DNA of 64,000 bases from Pseudolabrys sp. (GTDB lineage Bacteria > Pseudomonadota > Alphaproteobacteria > Rhizobiales > Xanthobacteraceae): positions 1 to 64,000 of the forward strand of contig JAUXXH010000008.1 in the NCBI GenBank assembly GCA_030684935.1, read 5' to 3'. The notes below the pieces were generated by a model that had not been told where the DNA came from, did no database searches, and was given only the letters and a program-made list of their open reading frames with translations. Each line of letters opens with the position of its first letter. Position 1 is the first letter of the stretch. Positions 30,533 to 56,955 of the stretch are shown piece by piece. Position numbers and translations under genes: made by a program.

Positions 30533-30548
30533 GCAAACTCTTTCTTGT

Positions 30549-30653
30549 CCCTCCCCCGCTTGCGGGGGAGGGCAGCCGCCGAAGGCGGCGGGTGGGGGAA
30601 GAGACCCCCCCCCGATGCGCTGCGCGCATCGACCCTCCCCTTTCAGGGGAGGG
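30549..30653. repeat. Palindromic repeat, family C copy 1
   Basis: It begins with CCCTCCCCCGCTTGCGGGGG and ends with CCCTCCCCTTTCAGGGGAGGG, each a hairpin; the core contains GCAGCCGCCGAAGGCGGCGGG and GATGCGCTGCGCGCATC. It occupies the spacer between the acyl-CoA synthetase and LivG genes. Other copies are at 31517, 35325, 36335, 38802, 56263 (inside uvrC) and a remnant at 58814. Confidence 0.85.
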
Positions 30654-30674
30654 ATAAGAAGTGGGAGCCCGCGC

Positions 30675-31475: not shown

Positions 31476-31516
31476 TGGCGAGGCCGACACTTAGCGGCGA
31501 CGACCTCTCTTTCTTA

Positions 31517-31622
31517 CCCTCCCCCCTGTGGGGAGGGTCGGCGCGCACTTGCGCGCCGGGGTGGGGGTCTCTTGCTTCGGCCATCACCCCCACCCCCATC
31601 CCCTCCCCACAAGGGGGAGGGG
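31517..31622. repeat. Palindromic repeat, family C copy 2
   Basis: It begins CCCTCCCCCCTGTGGGGAGGG and ends with CCCCTCCCCACAAGGGGGAGG; the core contains GGCGCGCACTTGCGCGCC. It fills most of the gap between livG and livH, ending 29 bases before the livH start codon. Confidence 0.83.
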
Positions 31623-31650
31623 AGTCGCAATACGGCAAGGTCGTGCAAAC

Positions 31651-35289: not shown

Positions 35290-35324
35290 CGCAGATGGGT
35301 CTTGCGGGACAAGCTGTCCGCTTA

Positions 35325-35464
35325 CCCTCCCCCCGCGAAGCGGTGGGGAGGGTCGGCGCTCATCGCGTCAGCGATGGGCGTCGGGGTGGGGGGCTTTTTA
35401 CGCTTGGCCATCCCCCCATCCCCGACCCCTCCCCACCACTCGCTCCGCTCGCGGGGGGAGGGGA
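35325..35464. repeat. Palindromic repeat, family C copy 3
   Basis: It begins CCCTCCCCCCGCGAAGCGGT and ends with CTCGCTCCGCTCGCGGGGGG followed by AGGGGAG; the core has GCTCATCGCGTCAGCGATGGG. It fills the gap between the binding protein gene and livF, ending about 30 bases before livF. Confidence 0.82.
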
Positions 35465-35494: not shown

Positions 35495-36325
35495 ATGAAC
35501 CAATCCGTAAATACCGAAACGCCCACCTCTTTCCTCTCGGTAAACAACATCGAGGTGGTTTACAGCCACGTCATTCTGGTGCTGAAGGGCGTGTCGCTTG
35601 ACGTGCCCAAAGGCGGCATCGTCGCGCTGCTCGGGGCCAACGGCGCCGGCAAGACCACGACCCTGAAGGCGATCTCCAATCTGCTGCACGCCGAACGCGG
35701 CGAAGTCACCAAGGGCTCGATCCTGCTCAACGGCGAGGCGGTGCACAAACTGACGCCGAACGAACTGGTGACGCGCGGCTGTATCCAGGTGATGGAAGGC
35801 CGCCGCTGCTTCGCGCATCTGACGATCGAAGAGAACCTGCTGACCGGCGCCTTCACCCGGCGCGACGGCAAGGCCGCGATCGCCCGCGACCTTGAGCTGG
35901 TTTACGATTATTTCCCGCGCCTGCGCGAGCGCCGCGAGTCGACCGCCGGCTATACCTCGGGCGGCGAGCAGCAGATGTGCGCCATCGGCCGCGCGCTGAT
36001 GTCGCGGCCCTCGATGATCCTGCTCGACGAACCGTCGATGGGGTTGGCGCCGCAGATCGTCGAGGAGATATTCACCATCGTGAAGGACCTCAACGAGAAG
36101 GAAGGCGTGTCGTTTCTGCTCGCCGAGCAGAACACCAACATGGCGCTGCGCTACGCGCGCTACGGCTATATTCTGGAAAACGGCCGGGTGGTGATGGACG
36201 GCGACGCCAAATCTCTGTCGGAAAACGAGGACGTGAAGGAATTCTACCTCGGCATTTCCGATGGCCGGCGCAAGTCGTTCCGCGACGGCAAGCATTACCG
36301 GCGCCGGAAGCGGTGGCTGGCGTGA
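35495..36325 (+). CDS. livF: Branched-chain amino acid-type ABC importer ATPase (LivF)
   Basis: The product is 276 residues with Walker A GANGAGKT (47-54), signature YTSGGEQQMCAIGRAL, Walker B MILLDEPSMGLAP and GYILENGRVVMDG near the end, all standard for LivF. The C-terminal tail KSFRDGKHYRRRKRWLA is longer and more basic than in E. coli; this form is common when LivF genes sit in operons with CoA ligases. There is no clear ribosome site before ATG 35495. Confidence 0.93.
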   Translation: MNQSVNTETPTSFLSVNNIEVVYSHVILVLKGVSLDVPKGGIVALLGANGAGKTTTLKAISNLLHAERGEVTKGSILLNGEAVHKLTPNELVTRGCIQVMEGRRCFAHLTIEENLLTGAFTRRDGKAAIARDLELVYDYFPRLRERRESTAGYTSGGEQQMCAIGRALMSRPSMILLDEPSMGLAPQIVEEIFTIVKDLNEKEGVSFLLAEQNTNMALRYARYGYILENGRVVMDGDAKSLSENEDVKEFYLGISDGRRKSFRDGKHYRRRKRWLA

Positions 36326-36334
36326 CGCTCTTCT

Positions 36335-36444
36335 CCCTCCCCCTGAAAGGGGGAGGGTCGGGGTGGGGGTCGTCAGTCGACGGGCCTTGCACTGACCCCC
36401 ACCCGGCGAGCTTTGCTCGCCGACCTCCCCCTTGCAGGGGGAGG
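36335..36444. repeat. Palindromic repeat, family C copy 4
   Basis: It begins CCCTCCCCCTGAAAGGGGGA and ends ACCTCCCCCTTGCAGGGGGA; the core contains CGGCGAGCTTTGCTCGCCG. It fills the gap between livF and the PaaK-like ligase gene, ending 27 bases before the latter. Confidence 0.83.
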
Positions 36445-36470
36445 TAAGAAACAACGACGGCATTGCGCGC

Positions 36471-38787: not shown

Positions 38788-38801
38788 GGTGAGGGGCTTA
38801 T

Positions 38802-38918
38802 CCCTCCCCTGAAAGGGGAGGGTCGATCGCGCGACAGCGCGATCGGGGTGGGGGGTTATGCCGCCAAGTCCCCACCCGGCTCGCTGTCGCTCGCCACCCT
38901 CCCCGCAAGCGGGGAGGG
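38802..38918. repeat. Palindromic repeat, family C copy 5
   Basis: It begins CCCTCCCCTGAAAGGGGAGG and ends CCCTCCCCGCAAGCGGGGAG; the core contains GATCGCGCGACAGCGCGATC. It lies 15 bases after the hemH stop codon. Following it, 38940-38975 holds three TTAA words with GTTAACC ends. Confidence 0.84.
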
Positions 38919-39048
38919 ATAAGCAGCGCCATCAACACCTCGTTAACCATAGCCCTTTAACGTCCGTTAACCACTTCCCGCCGGCTCCGCGGGGGCGTGC
39001 GCGTTGTTGCGCCCGTCACCAGCCGGTCACAGGAGGCCGAGACAGGAC

Positions 39049-51176: not shown

Positions 51177-51851
51177 CTAGAAGCGGTAGTTCAGGCCCGC
51201 GCGCACGATGTTGGTCTTGAAGCTGGCGTCCGATCCGGCAACGGCGCTGCCGCGGCCGAGATCGACGTGCAGATACTCGATCTTGGCGGTCCATGGTCCG
51301 GCCACAGCGGCCTCGATGCCGCCGCCCAGCGTCCAGCCCGAGCGGGTGTCGCTGGCGCTGCCGACGCCGGTCACCCAGGTATCGACTCCGCCGAAGGCCC
51401 AACCGCCCGTCACGTAGGGCATGTAGTTGCCGGCGGCATAGCCGAGACGACCGCGCACGGTGCCGAGCCACTTGTTGGCGGTGTCGCAGTTGGTGATGCC
51501 GCAACCGCTGCTGCCGCGAATGTTGCTGTAACCGATATCGCCTTCGAGACCGAACACCACTGGGCCGGTCTGAAAGTTGTAGCCCAGCGTGCCGGAGAAG
51601 ATGCCGCCGCTCACATCGTAGGTGGCGCCGCCGAAGTTCGACGTGCCCCAGCCGCCGCCGGCGGTCACACCGGCATAGAAGCCGGTCCAGTTATAGACGG
51701 GCGATGCGACGTAGACCGGCGCGGCGGCCGGCGTCGCCTGACGCATTGGAATATCTGCGGCCGCCGCAGCGGTCGCGCCGAGCGCGATGGCGGCGCAGCT
51801 TGCAAGAAGAGATTTAGCGAAGGACGATTGCGCGAGACGAAAGTTTTTCAT
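51177..51851 (-). CDS. Outer membrane beta-barrel protein (Omp25/31-like), first of three
   Basis: The product is 224 residues. The signal peptide reads SLLASCAAIALGATAAAA with cleavage before ADIPM. The barrel starts with YNWTGFYAGVTAGGGWG and ends GLNYRF, the terminal phenylalanine being the usual outer-membrane assembly signal. VFGLEGDIGYSNIRG and NKWLGTVRGRLGYA are typical of the eight-stranded Omp25/Omp31 group of Hyphomicrobiales. Two cysteines (SGCGITNCD) may form an outer-loop disulfide. A related gene follows upstream on the same strand. Confidence 0.9.
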   Translation of the reverse strand: MKNFRLAQSSFAKSLLASCAAIALGATAAAAADIPMRQATPAAAPVYVASPVYNWTGFYAGVTAGGGWGTSNFGGATYDVSGGIFSGTLGYNFQTGPVVFGLEGDIGYSNIRGSSGCGITNCDTANKWLGTVRGRLGYAAGNYMPYVTGGWAFGGVDTWVTGVGSASDTRSGWTLGGGIEAAVAGPWTAKIEYLHVDLGRGSAVAGSDASFKTNIVRAGLNYRF

Positions 51852-52016
51852 GACCACCTGCCGTTGTCCAAAACGGACGACGCGACCGCGCCGTTCCCCG
51901 ATGCCGGATTCAACCGTCATCCGAGATCGTGGTTCCTGGGCGGCGGCCGGAAAAACCGCGGCGCGACAATTTGGTTAAAAATGTCGATATGTGTGCGCAG
52001 GTCGGTGAGCGGGCAC

Positions 52017-52047
52017 AAAAAAAGCCCCGGGCCGAAGCCCGGGGCTC
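52017..52047 (-). terminator. Rho-independent terminator
   Basis: The perfect 9-base stem AGCCCCGGG (52024-52032) pairs with CCCGGGGCT (52039-52047); on the minus strand it is followed by a run of eight Ts. It lies 12 bases past the stop of the gene at 52060. Confidence 0.9.
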
Positions 52048-52059
52048 GTGTCGCTGGTG

Positions 52060-52725
52060 CTAGAAGCGGTAGTTGAGGCCGCCGCGCACAATGTTGGTGT
52101 GGAACTTGGTGTCGGCGCCGGCGAGCGTATTGGTGCCGAGATCAACGTAGAGGTATTCGGCCTTGGCGGTCCACGGACCGGTCAGTGCGAATTCCGCGCC
52201 GCCGCCGAGCGTCCAGCCGGCCTTGGTCTCGCTTTCGTTGAGGCCGAGCGCTGAGGTCGCCTTGATGTCGCCCACGGCCAGACCGCCGGTGACGAACGGC
52301 ATCACGCGATCGAATGCGTAGCCGATGCGGCCGCGCACGGTGCCGAGCCAGTTGTTGCGGGTTTCGCACGAACCGACGGCGCAGATGCCGGCGCTGCTGC
52401 TGCCCTTGATGCCGCTCCAGGCGACATCGCCTTCAAGACCGAACACGGTCTGGCCAGCCTGCCAGTTATAACCGAGCGTGCCGCCGACAACGCCGCCATC
52501 GACATCGAACGAGCCGGTGCTGCCGAACGCGTTGGTCCTGTTCGAGCTGCCCCAGCCGTAACCGGCGTTGATACCGGCGTACATGCCGGTCCAGTTATAG
52601 ACCGGCGCCATGTACATCGGCGCGGCCTTCGTCGGCATCGCCTGGGGGCGCTGCATGTCGGCCGCATGGGCTGCACCCATCATCGAAATCACAGCGAGCG
52701 CACCCGCCAACACAACACGCTTCAT
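52060..52725 (-). CDS. Outer membrane beta-barrel protein (Omp25/31-like), second of three
   Basis: The product is 221 residues. The signal peptide is MKRVVLAGALAVISMMGAAHA. The barrel starts YNWTGMYAGINAGYGWGSS and ends GLNYRF. It shares with the first copy VFGLEGDVAWSGIKGSS, NNWLGTVRGRIGYAF and the CAVGSCE cysteine pair, so the two are clearly duplicates. AGGAGA precedes the start. A 292-base AT-rich region separates it from the third copy and must hold its promoter. Confidence 0.9.
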   Translation of the reverse strand: MKRVVLAGALAVISMMGAAHAADMQRPQAMPTKAAPMYMAPVYNWTGMYAGINAGYGWGSSNRTNAFGSTGSFDVDGGVVGGTLGYNWQAGQTVFGLEGDVAWSGIKGSSSAGICAVGSCETRNNWLGTVRGRIGYAFDRVMPFVTGGLAVGDIKATSALGLNESETKAGWTLGGGAEFALTGPWTAKAEYLYVDLGTNTLAGADTKFHTNIVRGGLNYRF

Positions 52726-52959
52726 TTGCAGTTCTCCTGAAAGCCACCCACCCGGGTGATCGTGCGCGCACAGTATTCGTAATCGGCTGGGCGTCTAGTG
52801 CAGCAATGCAACACATCGTATTAAGTTGTTGAAAGTATTGTCTAAGTTAAGACTTCTGAATGACACTTTGCTGCCATGTTTATATCGACTGCTCGCCGCA
52901 GTTCGTATCTTGCAAATACTTTAAAGCTGAGATGAGAACTGGGAACTCCTAAAACGCAA

Positions 52960-52987
52960 CAAACCCCGGGGTTGCCCCCGGGGTTTG
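52960..52987 (-). terminator. Rho-independent terminator
   Basis: A 12-base perfect stem, CAAACCCCGGGG with CCCCGGGGTTTG, loop TTGC. On the minus strand GTTGCGTTTT follows, a weaker T-run than in the two other copies. It is 30 bases past the stop of the gene at 53018. Confidence 0.82.
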
Positions 52988-53017
52988 CGATGGTGGAACG
53001 GCTGGCGCGGTGTGCGT

Positions 53018-53644
53018 CTAGAAGTGATAGTTGACGCCGAGCCGCAGAATGTTGCTGTCGAAGCCGTTGTTGAGGCCGGTGGCGATGTAGTTCCGGCTGC
53101 CGAGGTCGATGTAGAGATACTCGACCTTGGCCGACCAGTTCGGCGTGATGCCGACCTCCATGCCGAGGCCGAGCGCCCAGCCGGCCTGCGTCTTGGTCTC
53201 GTCAAGACCGGCAATGGTCCCGGTGACGTTGCCGAACGCCAGACCGCCGGTGCCGTAGAACAGCACGTTGTTCATGGCGTAGCCGATGCGGCCGCGCACC
53301 GTGCCGAACCAAGGATTGGAAAACTGGTAGGGCGCGAAGGTCGCCTCGGCGGACGACAGGTTCAGGTCCGCCTCGGCGCCGAACACCAGGGCGCCGCGCT
53401 GCCAGTTGTAGCCGCCCTGCAGGCCGCCGCCGATACCGCTCGGCTTGGCGCCGCTGTTGGAGACATCGCCCCAGTTGTAACCGAGGTTGATGCCGGCATA
53501 GGGGCCGGCCCAGTTATAGAGACCGGCCGGCGCGGGCGCCGAATAATACGGAGCGGGTCCACCCTGCCGGAAATCGGCCGCGGTCGCCGCACCAGCGACA
53601 ACCGCCATGCTCGCCACCGTCATGGCCATGATCGCTTTGTTCAT
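53018..53644 (-). CDS. Outer membrane beta-barrel protein (Omp25/31-like), third of three
   Basis: The product is 208 residues. The signal peptide is MNKAIMAMTVASMAVVAGAATA. The barrel starts YNWAGPYAGINLGYNWGD and ends GVNYHF. It is more distant from the other two: the loop cysteines are missing and the first extracellular loop differs (SNSGAKPSGIGGGLQGGYNW). The start codon follows TGGAGGATACC. Proteins of this group are abundant surface structural components linking the membrane to peptidoglycan. Confidence 0.9.
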   Translation of the reverse strand: MNKAIMAMTVASMAVVAGAATAADFRQGGPAPYYSAPAPAGLYNWAGPYAGINLGYNWGDVSNSGAKPSGIGGGLQGGYNWQRGALVFGAEADLNLSSAEATFAPYQFSNPWFGTVRGRIGYAMNNVLFYGTGGLAFGNVTGTIAGLDETKTQAGWALGLGMEVGITPNWSAKVEYLYIDLGSRNYIATGLNNGFDSNILRLGVNYHF

Positions 53645-54765: not shown

Positions 54766-56955
54766 ATGAACGGCCCGCCCAAAGACCTCGAACCGGCCGA
54801 CGACCTCCGCGAGGAGGACGACGAGTCGTCGCTGCCCGAACTGGAACTGACCGACGCGCCGGCCGGGTCGCTGACTGCCGGCCGCTCGGCGATCGCGCGC
54901 TTTGCCAAGCTGGCGCCGCGGGCCCCTGGCGTCTACCGCATGATCGATGCCAACGGCGACGTGCTCTACGTCGGCAAGGCCAAGAACATCCGCAAACGGG
55001 TGATCGCCTATACGCGCCCGGCCGGCTACGACAACCGCATCGCCCGCATGATCGCCGGCACCGTGACGATGGAATTCGTCTCGACCTCGACCGAAACCGA
55101 AGCGCTGCTGCTCGAAGCCAATCTGATCAAGCGGCTGCGGCCGCGCTTCAACGTGCTGATGCGCGACGACAAGTCGTTTCCCTACATCATGATCACGTCG
55201 GATCACTGGGCGCCGCAGATCCTCAAGCATCGTGGTGCGCGCACGCGGCCGGGGCACTATTACGGGCCCTTCGCCAATGCCGGCGCGGTCAACCGCACGG
55301 TCAATGCGTTGCAGCGGGCATTTCTTTTGCGGTCGTGCTCGGACTCGTTCTTCGAGTCGCGGACGCGGCCCTGTCTGCTGCACCAGATCAAGCGCTGCGC
55401 GGCGCCGTGTACCGGCGAGATCGATTTCGCCGGTTACACCGCGCTGGTCCGCGAGGCCAATGACTTTCTGTCCGGGCGCAGCCGCGCCGTGCAGCAGGAA
55501 CTGGCGGCGGAAATGGATACGGCGTCGTCGGCGCTCGATTTCGAGCGCGCCGCGATCTACCGCGACCGGCTGGCGGCGCTGTCGGCGATCCAGTCGCACC
55601 AAGGCATCAATCCGCGCAACGTGGAGGAGGCCGACGTGTTCGCCGTGCACCAGGCCGGCGGCTACACCTGCGTCGAGGTGTTCTTCTTCCGCACCGGCCA
55701 GAACTGGGGCAACCGTGCCTATTTCCCCAAGGCCGACCGCTCGCTGTCGGCGCCCGAAGTGCTGAGCGCCTTCATGGCGCAGTTCTATGACGACAAGCCG
55801 CCGCCGCGGCTGATGCTGGTGTCGCACGATTTCGAGGAGCGCGAGTTGCTGGCCGAGGCGCTGTGCATCAAGGCCGGCCGCAAGGTCGAAATCAGCATGC
55901 CGCAGCGCGGCGAGCGCAAGGAACTGGTTGAGCACGCGCTGACCAACGGACGCGAGGCGCTGGCGCGCAAGCTGGCCGATACCTCGTCGCAGCAGCGGCT
56001 GCTCAAGGCGCTGACCGAAACCTTTGGCCTGCCGCGCGAGCCGCGCCGCATCGAGGTCTACGACAACAGCCATATCGCCGGCACCAATGCGGTCGGCGCC
56101 ATGGTGGTGGCGGGGCCGGAGGGTTTCCGCAAGAACCAGTACCGCAAGTTCAACATCCGCTCGGCCGAACTGGCGCCGGGCGACGACTACGGCATGTTGC
56201 GCGAGGTGTTGCAGCGGCGCTTCAAGCGGCTGCTGAAGGACGAGCCGCGCGAGGCTGCTTTACCCTCTCCCCTTGTGGGAGAGGGTGGCGATCTTTCTTC
56301 TTCACCTCCCCCCTTGAGGGGGAGGTCGGCTGCCGAAGGCAGCCGGGTGGGGGGTGAGCCGTTGGCGCAGAGTCTCGAAGACACCCCCCTCCCAATACCT
56401 ACCCCGCAAGGGGGGCGGGAAGAGGTTGTTTCGGGCGAGGCGGCAATCGCACCGCCCGACGGCCCCGAGCCGATCGACTTCGACGCCGACGACGCCACCT
56501 GGCCCGACCTGCTGCTGATCGACGGCGGGCAGGGGCAATTGAAGGTCGCGACCGAGGTGCTGGCCGAACTGGGGCTGCATTATCTGCCGGTGGTGTCCAT
56601 CGCCAAGGGCCTGGACCGCGAGGCCGGCCGCGAAACCTTCTTCATGCCCGGGCGCACGCCGTTCAAGCTGCCGCCGCGCGATCCGCTGCTGTACTTTGTC
56701 GAGCGCATGCGCGACGAGGCGCATCGTTTCGCCATCGGCTCGCACCGGGCGCGACGCAAGAAGGACATCCGCGAGGCCGGCTTGCAGGAAATCGCCGGCG
56801 TCGGGCCGACGCGCAAGCGCGCGCTGCTGCGCCATTTCGGCACCCTGAAAGCCATCGAGCGGGCGAGCCTCCCCGATCTGGCGCAGGTGCCGGGAATCAG
56901 TGCGGAGACGGCGCGAAAGATCTATGAGTTCTTCCACGAAAAGGCGGCGCAGTAA
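54766..56955 (+). CDS. uvrC: Excinuclease ABC subunit C with an in-frame repeat insertion
   Basis: Makes both incisions in nucleotide excision repair. It has 729 residues against about 610 in E. coli. A 45-residue acidic N-terminal extension precedes the GIY-YIG nuclease (GVY 55-57, YVG 68-70), then the UVR motif ([15 protein letters not shown]), the RNase H-like nuclease ([33 protein letters not shown]) and C-terminal helix-hairpin-helix pair ([23 protein letters not shown]). Between [10 protein letters not shown] and the [10 protein letters not shown] strand lies an insertion, residues about 500-552, encoded by a palindromic repeat. The frame is intact across it. FolM-like and dioxygenase genes flank it. 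Confidence 0.95.
56263..56420 (+). repeat. Palindromic repeat, family C copy 6, inside uvrC
   Basis: It begins CCCTCTCCCCTTGTGGGAGA, continues with ACCTCCCCCCTTGAGGGGGA and GGCTGCCGAAGGCAGCCGGG, and ends with TACCCCGCAAGGGGGGCGGG. The word order matches copies at 30549 and 35325. It is translated as [15 protein letters not shown]..., [17 protein letters not shown] and [11 protein letters not shown], with no stop codon. This is the only full copy of the family located within a gene in the window. Confidence 0.88.

Follow-up and report, generated by a model that had tools for sequence, protein, structure and literature searches.

A composite palindromic repeat translated in frame within a loop of UvrC in Pseudolabrys, and in-frame copies of such repeats in genome-maintenance genes

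The closest described systems are the GTAG and CGTC REPs, which, in the available text of Di Nocera et al. 2013 (PMC3733652), are short palindromes, mostly intergenic, often arranged as inverted dimers and in some cases lying in frame inside genes. The genes reported there to carry intragenic REPs include those for excinuclease, UvrD, DnaE2, DNA polymerase I, recBCD, tRNA synthetases and pseudouridine synthases, and one recB site was occupied by different REPs in two Xanthomonas species. Di Nocera and colleagues discussed the neutrality of such copies in loops, and also speculated on mutator states arising from REPs (PMC3733652, available text). A second system is that of the Rickettsia palindromic elements, of about 150 bp, which are translated in frame in conserved genes, nearly half of the first described copies lying in open reading frames according to the available part of PMC10969869. 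In addition, REPINs consist of two inverted REP-like halves that form one long hairpin; they reach high copy number and are mobilised by RAYT.

Here we analysed a window of 64,000 nucleotides (the whole stretch of Pseudolabrys DNA under study), in which an element of this kind lies inside uvrC. The gene was identified by its match to TIGR00194 (E 4e-154), and the GIY-YIG, UVR, RNase H and helix-hairpin-helix parts were all matched in the same open reading frame. A reading of the DNA made without database searches (hereafter the sequence-only reading) had claimed that a dispersed palindromic repeat sits in uvrC with the frame kept, and this proved correct, as the frame runs open through the repeat and the repeat family is abundant in the genome. 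The same reading had ascribed about 50 residues to a single repeat. The in-frame repeat stands, but the segment is a composite of two families, about 167 nt long and coding for 56 residues, in which a family A half element precedes a family B dimer. Specifically, the first hairpin belongs to family A (the CCCTCTCCC type) and the remainder is a dimer of family B (the CCTCCCC type), whose encoded peptide ends in PTPQGGREE. Folding of the insert strand is stronger than that of shuffled sequences (z -6.4), and an Rfam search around uvrC gave no match. Table 1 reports the positions of the gene, of the parts of the insert and of the other copies in the window.

Table 1. Coordinates of uvrC, of the components of its composite insert and of the other dimer copies in the window.
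Feature	Position	Strand	Remarks
uvrC, excinuclease ABC subunit C, 729 aa	54766..56955	+	open through repeat
Family A element, left half: tail, hairpin ACCCTCTCCC-CTTGT-GGGAGAGGGT, GGCGA	56258..56289	+	translated; boundaries approximate
Family A hairpin in uvrC	56262-56286		palindrome analysis
Family B dimer: pyrimidine tail (codes SSS), left hairpin, small inner hairpin, spacer, decayed right half	56290..56424	+	boundaries approximate
Family B dimer, left hairpin ACCTCCCCC/GGGGGAGGT	56304..56326	n/a	
Family B dimer, inner hairpin CGGCTGCC/GGCAGCCG	56327..56345	n/a	
Inner arms GGGTGGGGGGTG and CACCCCCCTCCC, joining both halves	56345..56393	n/a	56345-56356 with 56382-56393
Right hairpin, decayed	56397..56418		pairs with 56305-56326
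Dimer copy	30538..30664		between genes; boundaries approximate
Dimer copy	31506..31637		between genes; boundaries approximate
Dimer copy, larger loops	35314..35462		between genes; boundaries approximate
Dimer copy	36324..36456		between genes; boundaries approximate
Dimer copy	38791..38929		between genes; boundaries approximate

When the uvrC insert was compared with its own assembly, at least 47 matches were obtained at E <= 0.001, the insert itself included (40 of 86 candidates scored). This assembly contains 150 occurrences of the core CCTCCCC-N2-12-GGGGAGG and 19 of the core CCCTCTCCC-N2-12-GGGAGAGGG, against none for the reversed control in both cases. The family B dimer is about 135 nt long; it consists of a pair of REP-like halves in inverted orientation and ends in a pyrimidine tail, on account of which SSS stands ahead of many translated copies. 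From 100 ends of 50 own-genome dimers we derived the end consensus CTTYTTHAC-CCTCCCC, which is followed by a loop, GGGGAGG, a GTCGG..CCG hairpin, GGGTGGGG and a spacer, and then by the inverse of this order. Terminal inverted repeats of the kind looked for in MITEs are present in the dimers; at the RluA, helicase, ThiC and UvrC sites target bases are exchanged, and a clear duplication is absent by eye. The inverted halves and the high copy number are shared with REPINs. In contrast, families A and B have neither the end tag of GTAG REPs nor that of CGTC REPs. A CGTC tag with AT at the stem start marks the CGTC REPs; in a third family met below, family C, CGTCATCCTGAGG is visible.

All five other copies that the sequence-only reading had placed between genes in the window were found there. 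A BLAST search with the uvrC insert recovers four of them (hits at 30539, 31496, 36328-36450 and 38806; E of the best piece from 6e-10 to 9e-5), and the fifth, at 35326, has the core. By codon score the five copies lie between co-directional frames, a call that is firm for two of them and weak for three. A mechanical repeat search of the window does not list the family among its 20 largest repeats, coding similarity being dominant there. Separately, three tandem related genes with long direct repeats, of outer-membrane type by eye, occupy positions 51177-53644 on the minus strand of the window.

To this window we added 53 stretches fetched around matches in the own genome, chosen by likeness to the uvrC insert, from the first listed places of the CCTCCCC core and from places of the CCCTCTCCC core; together they gave a sample of 80 elements. 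Seven of the 80 lie in frame inside genes and the other 73 are between genes or without such support, compared with the nearly half noted above for Rickettsia elements. The genes with in-frame copies are uvrC, uvrB (two copies in one cluster), uvrD, a ligase-associated DNA-damage DEXH helicase, thiC, an RluA-type pseudouridine synthase and a B12-dependent ribonucleotide reductase. Five of these calls were made by matching codon scores on both sides of the element, and those for the helicase and uvrB were added separately.

The proposal that the repeat survives in genes by being open in a chosen frame was not supported by these elements. Among 48 dimers outside genes, the mean number of open frames is 2.25 of six, against 2.50 after shuffling; one or more frames are open in 45 of them, where 46.2 would be expected. 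Inside genes all three codon phases occur, phase 0 being the commonest in a count that includes native motifs such as FLPGWEEG. Since all three phases are used and openness is no higher than in shuffled sequences, frame openness follows from composition, and in this respect the repeats described here differ from the Rickettsia elements. The Rickettsia elements, which had been named as the precedent, hold as an analogue, the closer precedent being the intragenic REPs as far as the available text on them goes (PMC3733652).

The UvrC loop was surveyed in 36 genomes of the genus, the own genome (G000) included, and was readable in 34 of them; genomes G060-G066 were covered by the repeat search and lie outside this survey. 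Repeat DNA fills the loop in 10 of the 34 genomes, own included, and belongs to three families. Clear repeats are found in seven: G000 and G017 (family A half plus family B), G011, G027 and G010 (family A), G032 (family B type) and G015 (family C). The latter, of the CGTCATCCTGAGG type, has 65 matches in the G015 genome, self included. Three further genomes (G031, G008 and G029) show decayed or partial repeats, and 24 are without a clear repeat. The expectation that close relatives lack the segment is thus borne out for most genomes of the genus, although the nearest relative, G017, has it. The distance from RRFKRLL to the nuclease strand is 95 residues here against 29-48 in the 24 genomes without a clear repeat. 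Outside the genus, a repeat also lies in the UvrC loop of L040 and of a Methylocystis record (L082).

A variable loop is present at this site in every relative with a readable loop, as would be expected if the segment were an ancient loop, passed down vertically, whose likeness to a repeat is incidental. Against this reading, three repeat-free loops, when tested, were no more like the repeat loops than shuffled sequences were (z 0.3 to 1.1). An assembly error, in turn, is opposed by the insert at the same place in G017 and by another family in the single-contig genome G011. We regard both accounts, old loop or assembly error, as scarcely credible. L009 has a long loop that had seemed likely to carry a repeat, but none was present on testing. 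The loop of G009 (L010), which was scored repeat-free, resembles that of its sister G031 (L003) with z 11.8, a likeness due to shared descent or to a repeat remnant.

On a UvrC tree built without the loop (47 rows, 12 of them repeat-bearing, with rows L082 and L009 on long branches), the repeat label requires 11 changes, 10 of which are forced by well supported branches. The label shows no clustering beyond that of shuffled labels, 373 of 500 shuffles being as low. The UvrC loop has therefore probably been filled many times. In addition, most repeat-free loops, those of outgroups included, keep an alanine-rich segment that is absent by eye from the repeat-bearing loops. Because mere loss of a repeat would not restore this segment, the pattern is better read as repeated gain, except in the event that recombination has swapped loops; loops could indeed have passed between species. 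By the same comparison by eye, the repeats seem to have replaced the older loop and not to have been added to it, although the older loop could instead have gone by later deletion.

Exchange of bases is seen at other sites as well. About 14 nt of the empty site in RluA and about 51 nt of that in the helicase were exchanged for the element. At the thiC site, family B is present in G000 (L153, 1546-1639) and family A in the relative G017 (L267), as though the elements could replace each other. These repeats are set apart from the intragenic REPs, as described in the available text of PMC3733652, in that three families occupy the same UvrC loop within one genus, apparently in place of an older loop. 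Literature searches showed no paper on the UvrC loop; PMC3733652 writes 'UvrABCD', and its gene tables may list uvrC. To the extent that its available text allows the comparison, the present case adds a strong example to a phenomenon already known but still unexplained. As far as we have seen in the same text, the new elements are families without GTAG or CGTC tags, three families in the UvrC loop, exchange of the native loop, exchange of one family for another, and the frame test.

How the protein bears the insert was approached through its substitutions and a predicted structure. Between G000 and G017 the insert differs by 9 nonsynonymous and 6 synonymous changes and the gene outside the loop by 22 and 127, respectively (Fisher p 2e-4, one pair); both frame and insert length are kept in the two genomes. 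In this one genome pair the segment is loosely constrained, and its evolution is relaxed rather than positive. An AlphaFold model of UvrC, itself of middling confidence (mean pLDDT 65.9, pTM 0.52), predicts disorder over residues 497-576, with block means of pLDDT of about 27-31 over 501-570, and places the loop between the helix at 474-492 and the RNase H strand at residue 582. The solved UvrC domain 3c65 has three residues between the stretches that align with the two flanks of the loop. Of the idea that the repeat lands in surface loops, the loop itself is upheld, flexible by predicted disorder. The picture suggested by the model is that of an insert forming a tolerated, weakly constrained, disordered loop.

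Taken together, these data favour a translated palindromic repeat that is tolerated in a loop and whose frame is kept by selection, a reading to which we assign a probability of roughly 0.85. The opposite view of the insert, namely that selection favours the inserted loops because they change repair activity, draws on the fact that other repeat families in other bacteria affect the same set of genes (PMC3733652, available text). It is at odds with the relaxed evolution of the one pair tested and with the disorder predicted for the loop. Error-free repair and an error-prone polymerase, moreover, have opposite effects on mutation. We judge this explanation improbable.

According to the tolerance reading, dimers would land widely in the genome by a route that may be trans-acting or recombinational. 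Elements would in this way have come to occupy the UvrC loop ahead of the RNase H strand, replacing the older loop, and copies would persist where the new loop does little harm. Selection for a working UvrC would remove out-of-frame versions, and inside genes an element would probably survive only where a flexible loop accepts it in frame. What the data show is the identity and frame of the repeat, its position within a loop of the predicted structure, its absence from most relatives, three repeat families in this loop in different species, and native bases exchanged for the element at two other genes. Mobility itself is suggested by copy number and scattered presence; we infer near-neutrality, a working UvrC and the mode of movement. 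As for a mobiliser, a search of 36 genomes of the genus for PF01797 (RAYT) genes gave matches in only two, one of which is the own genome (C52, E 2.7e-6, over the cut-off); the other 34 had none. On this count RAYT is unlikely to mobilise the repeats in the whole genus, which would set them apart from REPINs.

Repeat-like segments had also been predicted inside other conserved proteins, and in-frame copies were indeed found, for example in UvrB, UvrD, DnaE2 and ThiC. A main profile of ten translated copies, with seeds partly from repair genes, was used to search 43 genomes of the genus, and the count took in only open reading frames of at least 500 aa, a limit that favours long proteins and under which short repair proteins could not appear. 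Among the matches listed there are at least 27 distinct stop-free open reading frames of 500 aa or more, 26 of which have a gene identity; the remaining one, L262, is antisense. Among the same listed matches, the identified genes are DnaE2 (7), UvrD (5), UvrC (3), UvrB (3), MutY (2), IOR (2), UvrA (1) and one each of ThiC, LeuRS and a caprolactamase-like gene, identities of which CapA and several UvrD and PcrA matches fall under the NCBIfam cut-offs; the UvrD identity of L146 and L236 has Pfam support too. Genome maintenance thus accounts for 21 of the 26 among the matches listed, or for 19 of 24 without MutY. For binomial values the share of repair genes among all genes was assumed to be 2-8%.

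Because the seeds of the main profile came partly from repair genes, a control profile was run that drew on copies of the own genome lying outside genes; of the 43 peptides from these copies, 12 were picked by eye. Among its matches listed, 11 long stop-free open reading frames appear, of which four are real genes (DnaE2 in three genomes and LeuRS in one); the remainder comprises six chance frames and the reverse strand of the G010 UvrB copy. A family A profile returned UvrC in three genomes, ThiC, UvrD and the caprolactamase-like gene among mostly chance frames. When 21 family A frames were inspected, two were internal and in frame (the CapA-like L304 and the second copy in UvrD of L125), three stood at a gene end and are candidates only (L306 QueG, L308 and L318), and 16 were rejected as translated copies, since they look antisense or due to chance. 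A long open frame alone is therefore no evidence of translation.

Tolerance alone does not predict that in-frame copies should gather in uvrA-D and dnaE2, and why repair genes stand out is left unexplained by it. The elements might instead insert preferentially into genome-maintenance genes, for instance if they move at times when damage-induced genes are switched on, or along a route linked to repair; the UvrC loop would then be one target among many. The shares reported above for the main and control profiles point in this direction, as do the own-genome genes, four of seven of which (uvrB, uvrC, uvrD and the DNA-damage helicase), or three of six without the seed uvrC, are DNA-repair or damage genes. 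LexA-type boxes were also met at uvrA (L248, two), at uvrB (L253, two) and inside dnaE2 (L128, one), which makes five in 120.6 kb of target stretches against three in 201.5 kb of own-genome stretches. However, no such box lies near uvrC in the window, and the box is absent from 19 of 22 scanned target stretches, many of which do not reach the promoter, so that the picture from the boxes is mixed. Moreover, ThiC, LeuRS, RluA, NrdJ, IOR and the caprolactamase-like gene are struck too, and the 500 aa limit kept short repair and damage-response proteins from the counts. We consider such targeting possible but doubtful. The boxes at the repeat-bearing uvrA (L248) and uvrB (L253) have the form GTTC-N7-GTTC.

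In other families and another genus, the present data repeat the observation of 2013 that intragenic palindromes favour excision-repair and error-prone polymerase genes; the same bias as in intragenic REPs is met here among the matches listed and in frames of at least 500 aa, in so far as the available text of PMC3733652 describes it. A wider conjecture, which we hold to be rather unlikely, is that unrelated families of small palindromes, which share no transposase, are attracted to, or retained in, uvrA, uvrB, uvrC, uvrD and dnaE2 across distant bacteria, their movement being coupled to DNA damage or repair at these genes. If it were true, elements would land naturally in the UvrC loop, which would keep a record of the coupling. 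In any case, a single genus, with a loop that three families have probably filled many times and with repeat-free sister loops, offers a dense natural experiment, in which insertion, replacement, family swapping and decay can be followed; tolerance and targeting can therefore be set against each other by survey.

Several of the genes recovered show further features. In MutY, the repeat lies in frame directly ahead of the domain in four genomes (L123, L131, L254 and L256). The MutY, TruB and QueG copies are N-terminal, and the true start may fall downstream, leaving the repeat untranslated. In the IOR frames of L127 and L122 (G015 and G005), the repeat stands between the alpha and beta parts of one continuous open reading frame, so that this indolepyruvate ferredoxin oxidoreductase is possibly a repeat-made fusion of two genes. 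The caprolactamase-like gene (L249, L304) has in-frame repeats in two genomes, with two copies in one of them. DnaE2 of L245, L246 and L121 has more than one in-frame repeat, with two or three per gene; the copies in L245 are nearly identical to each other, as are those in L246. Finally, UvrD of G012 (L125) contains a second repeat, which belongs to family A. It lies in the motor domain at residue 378 of the open reading frame, flanked by DEYQDTN and VGDDDQSIY.
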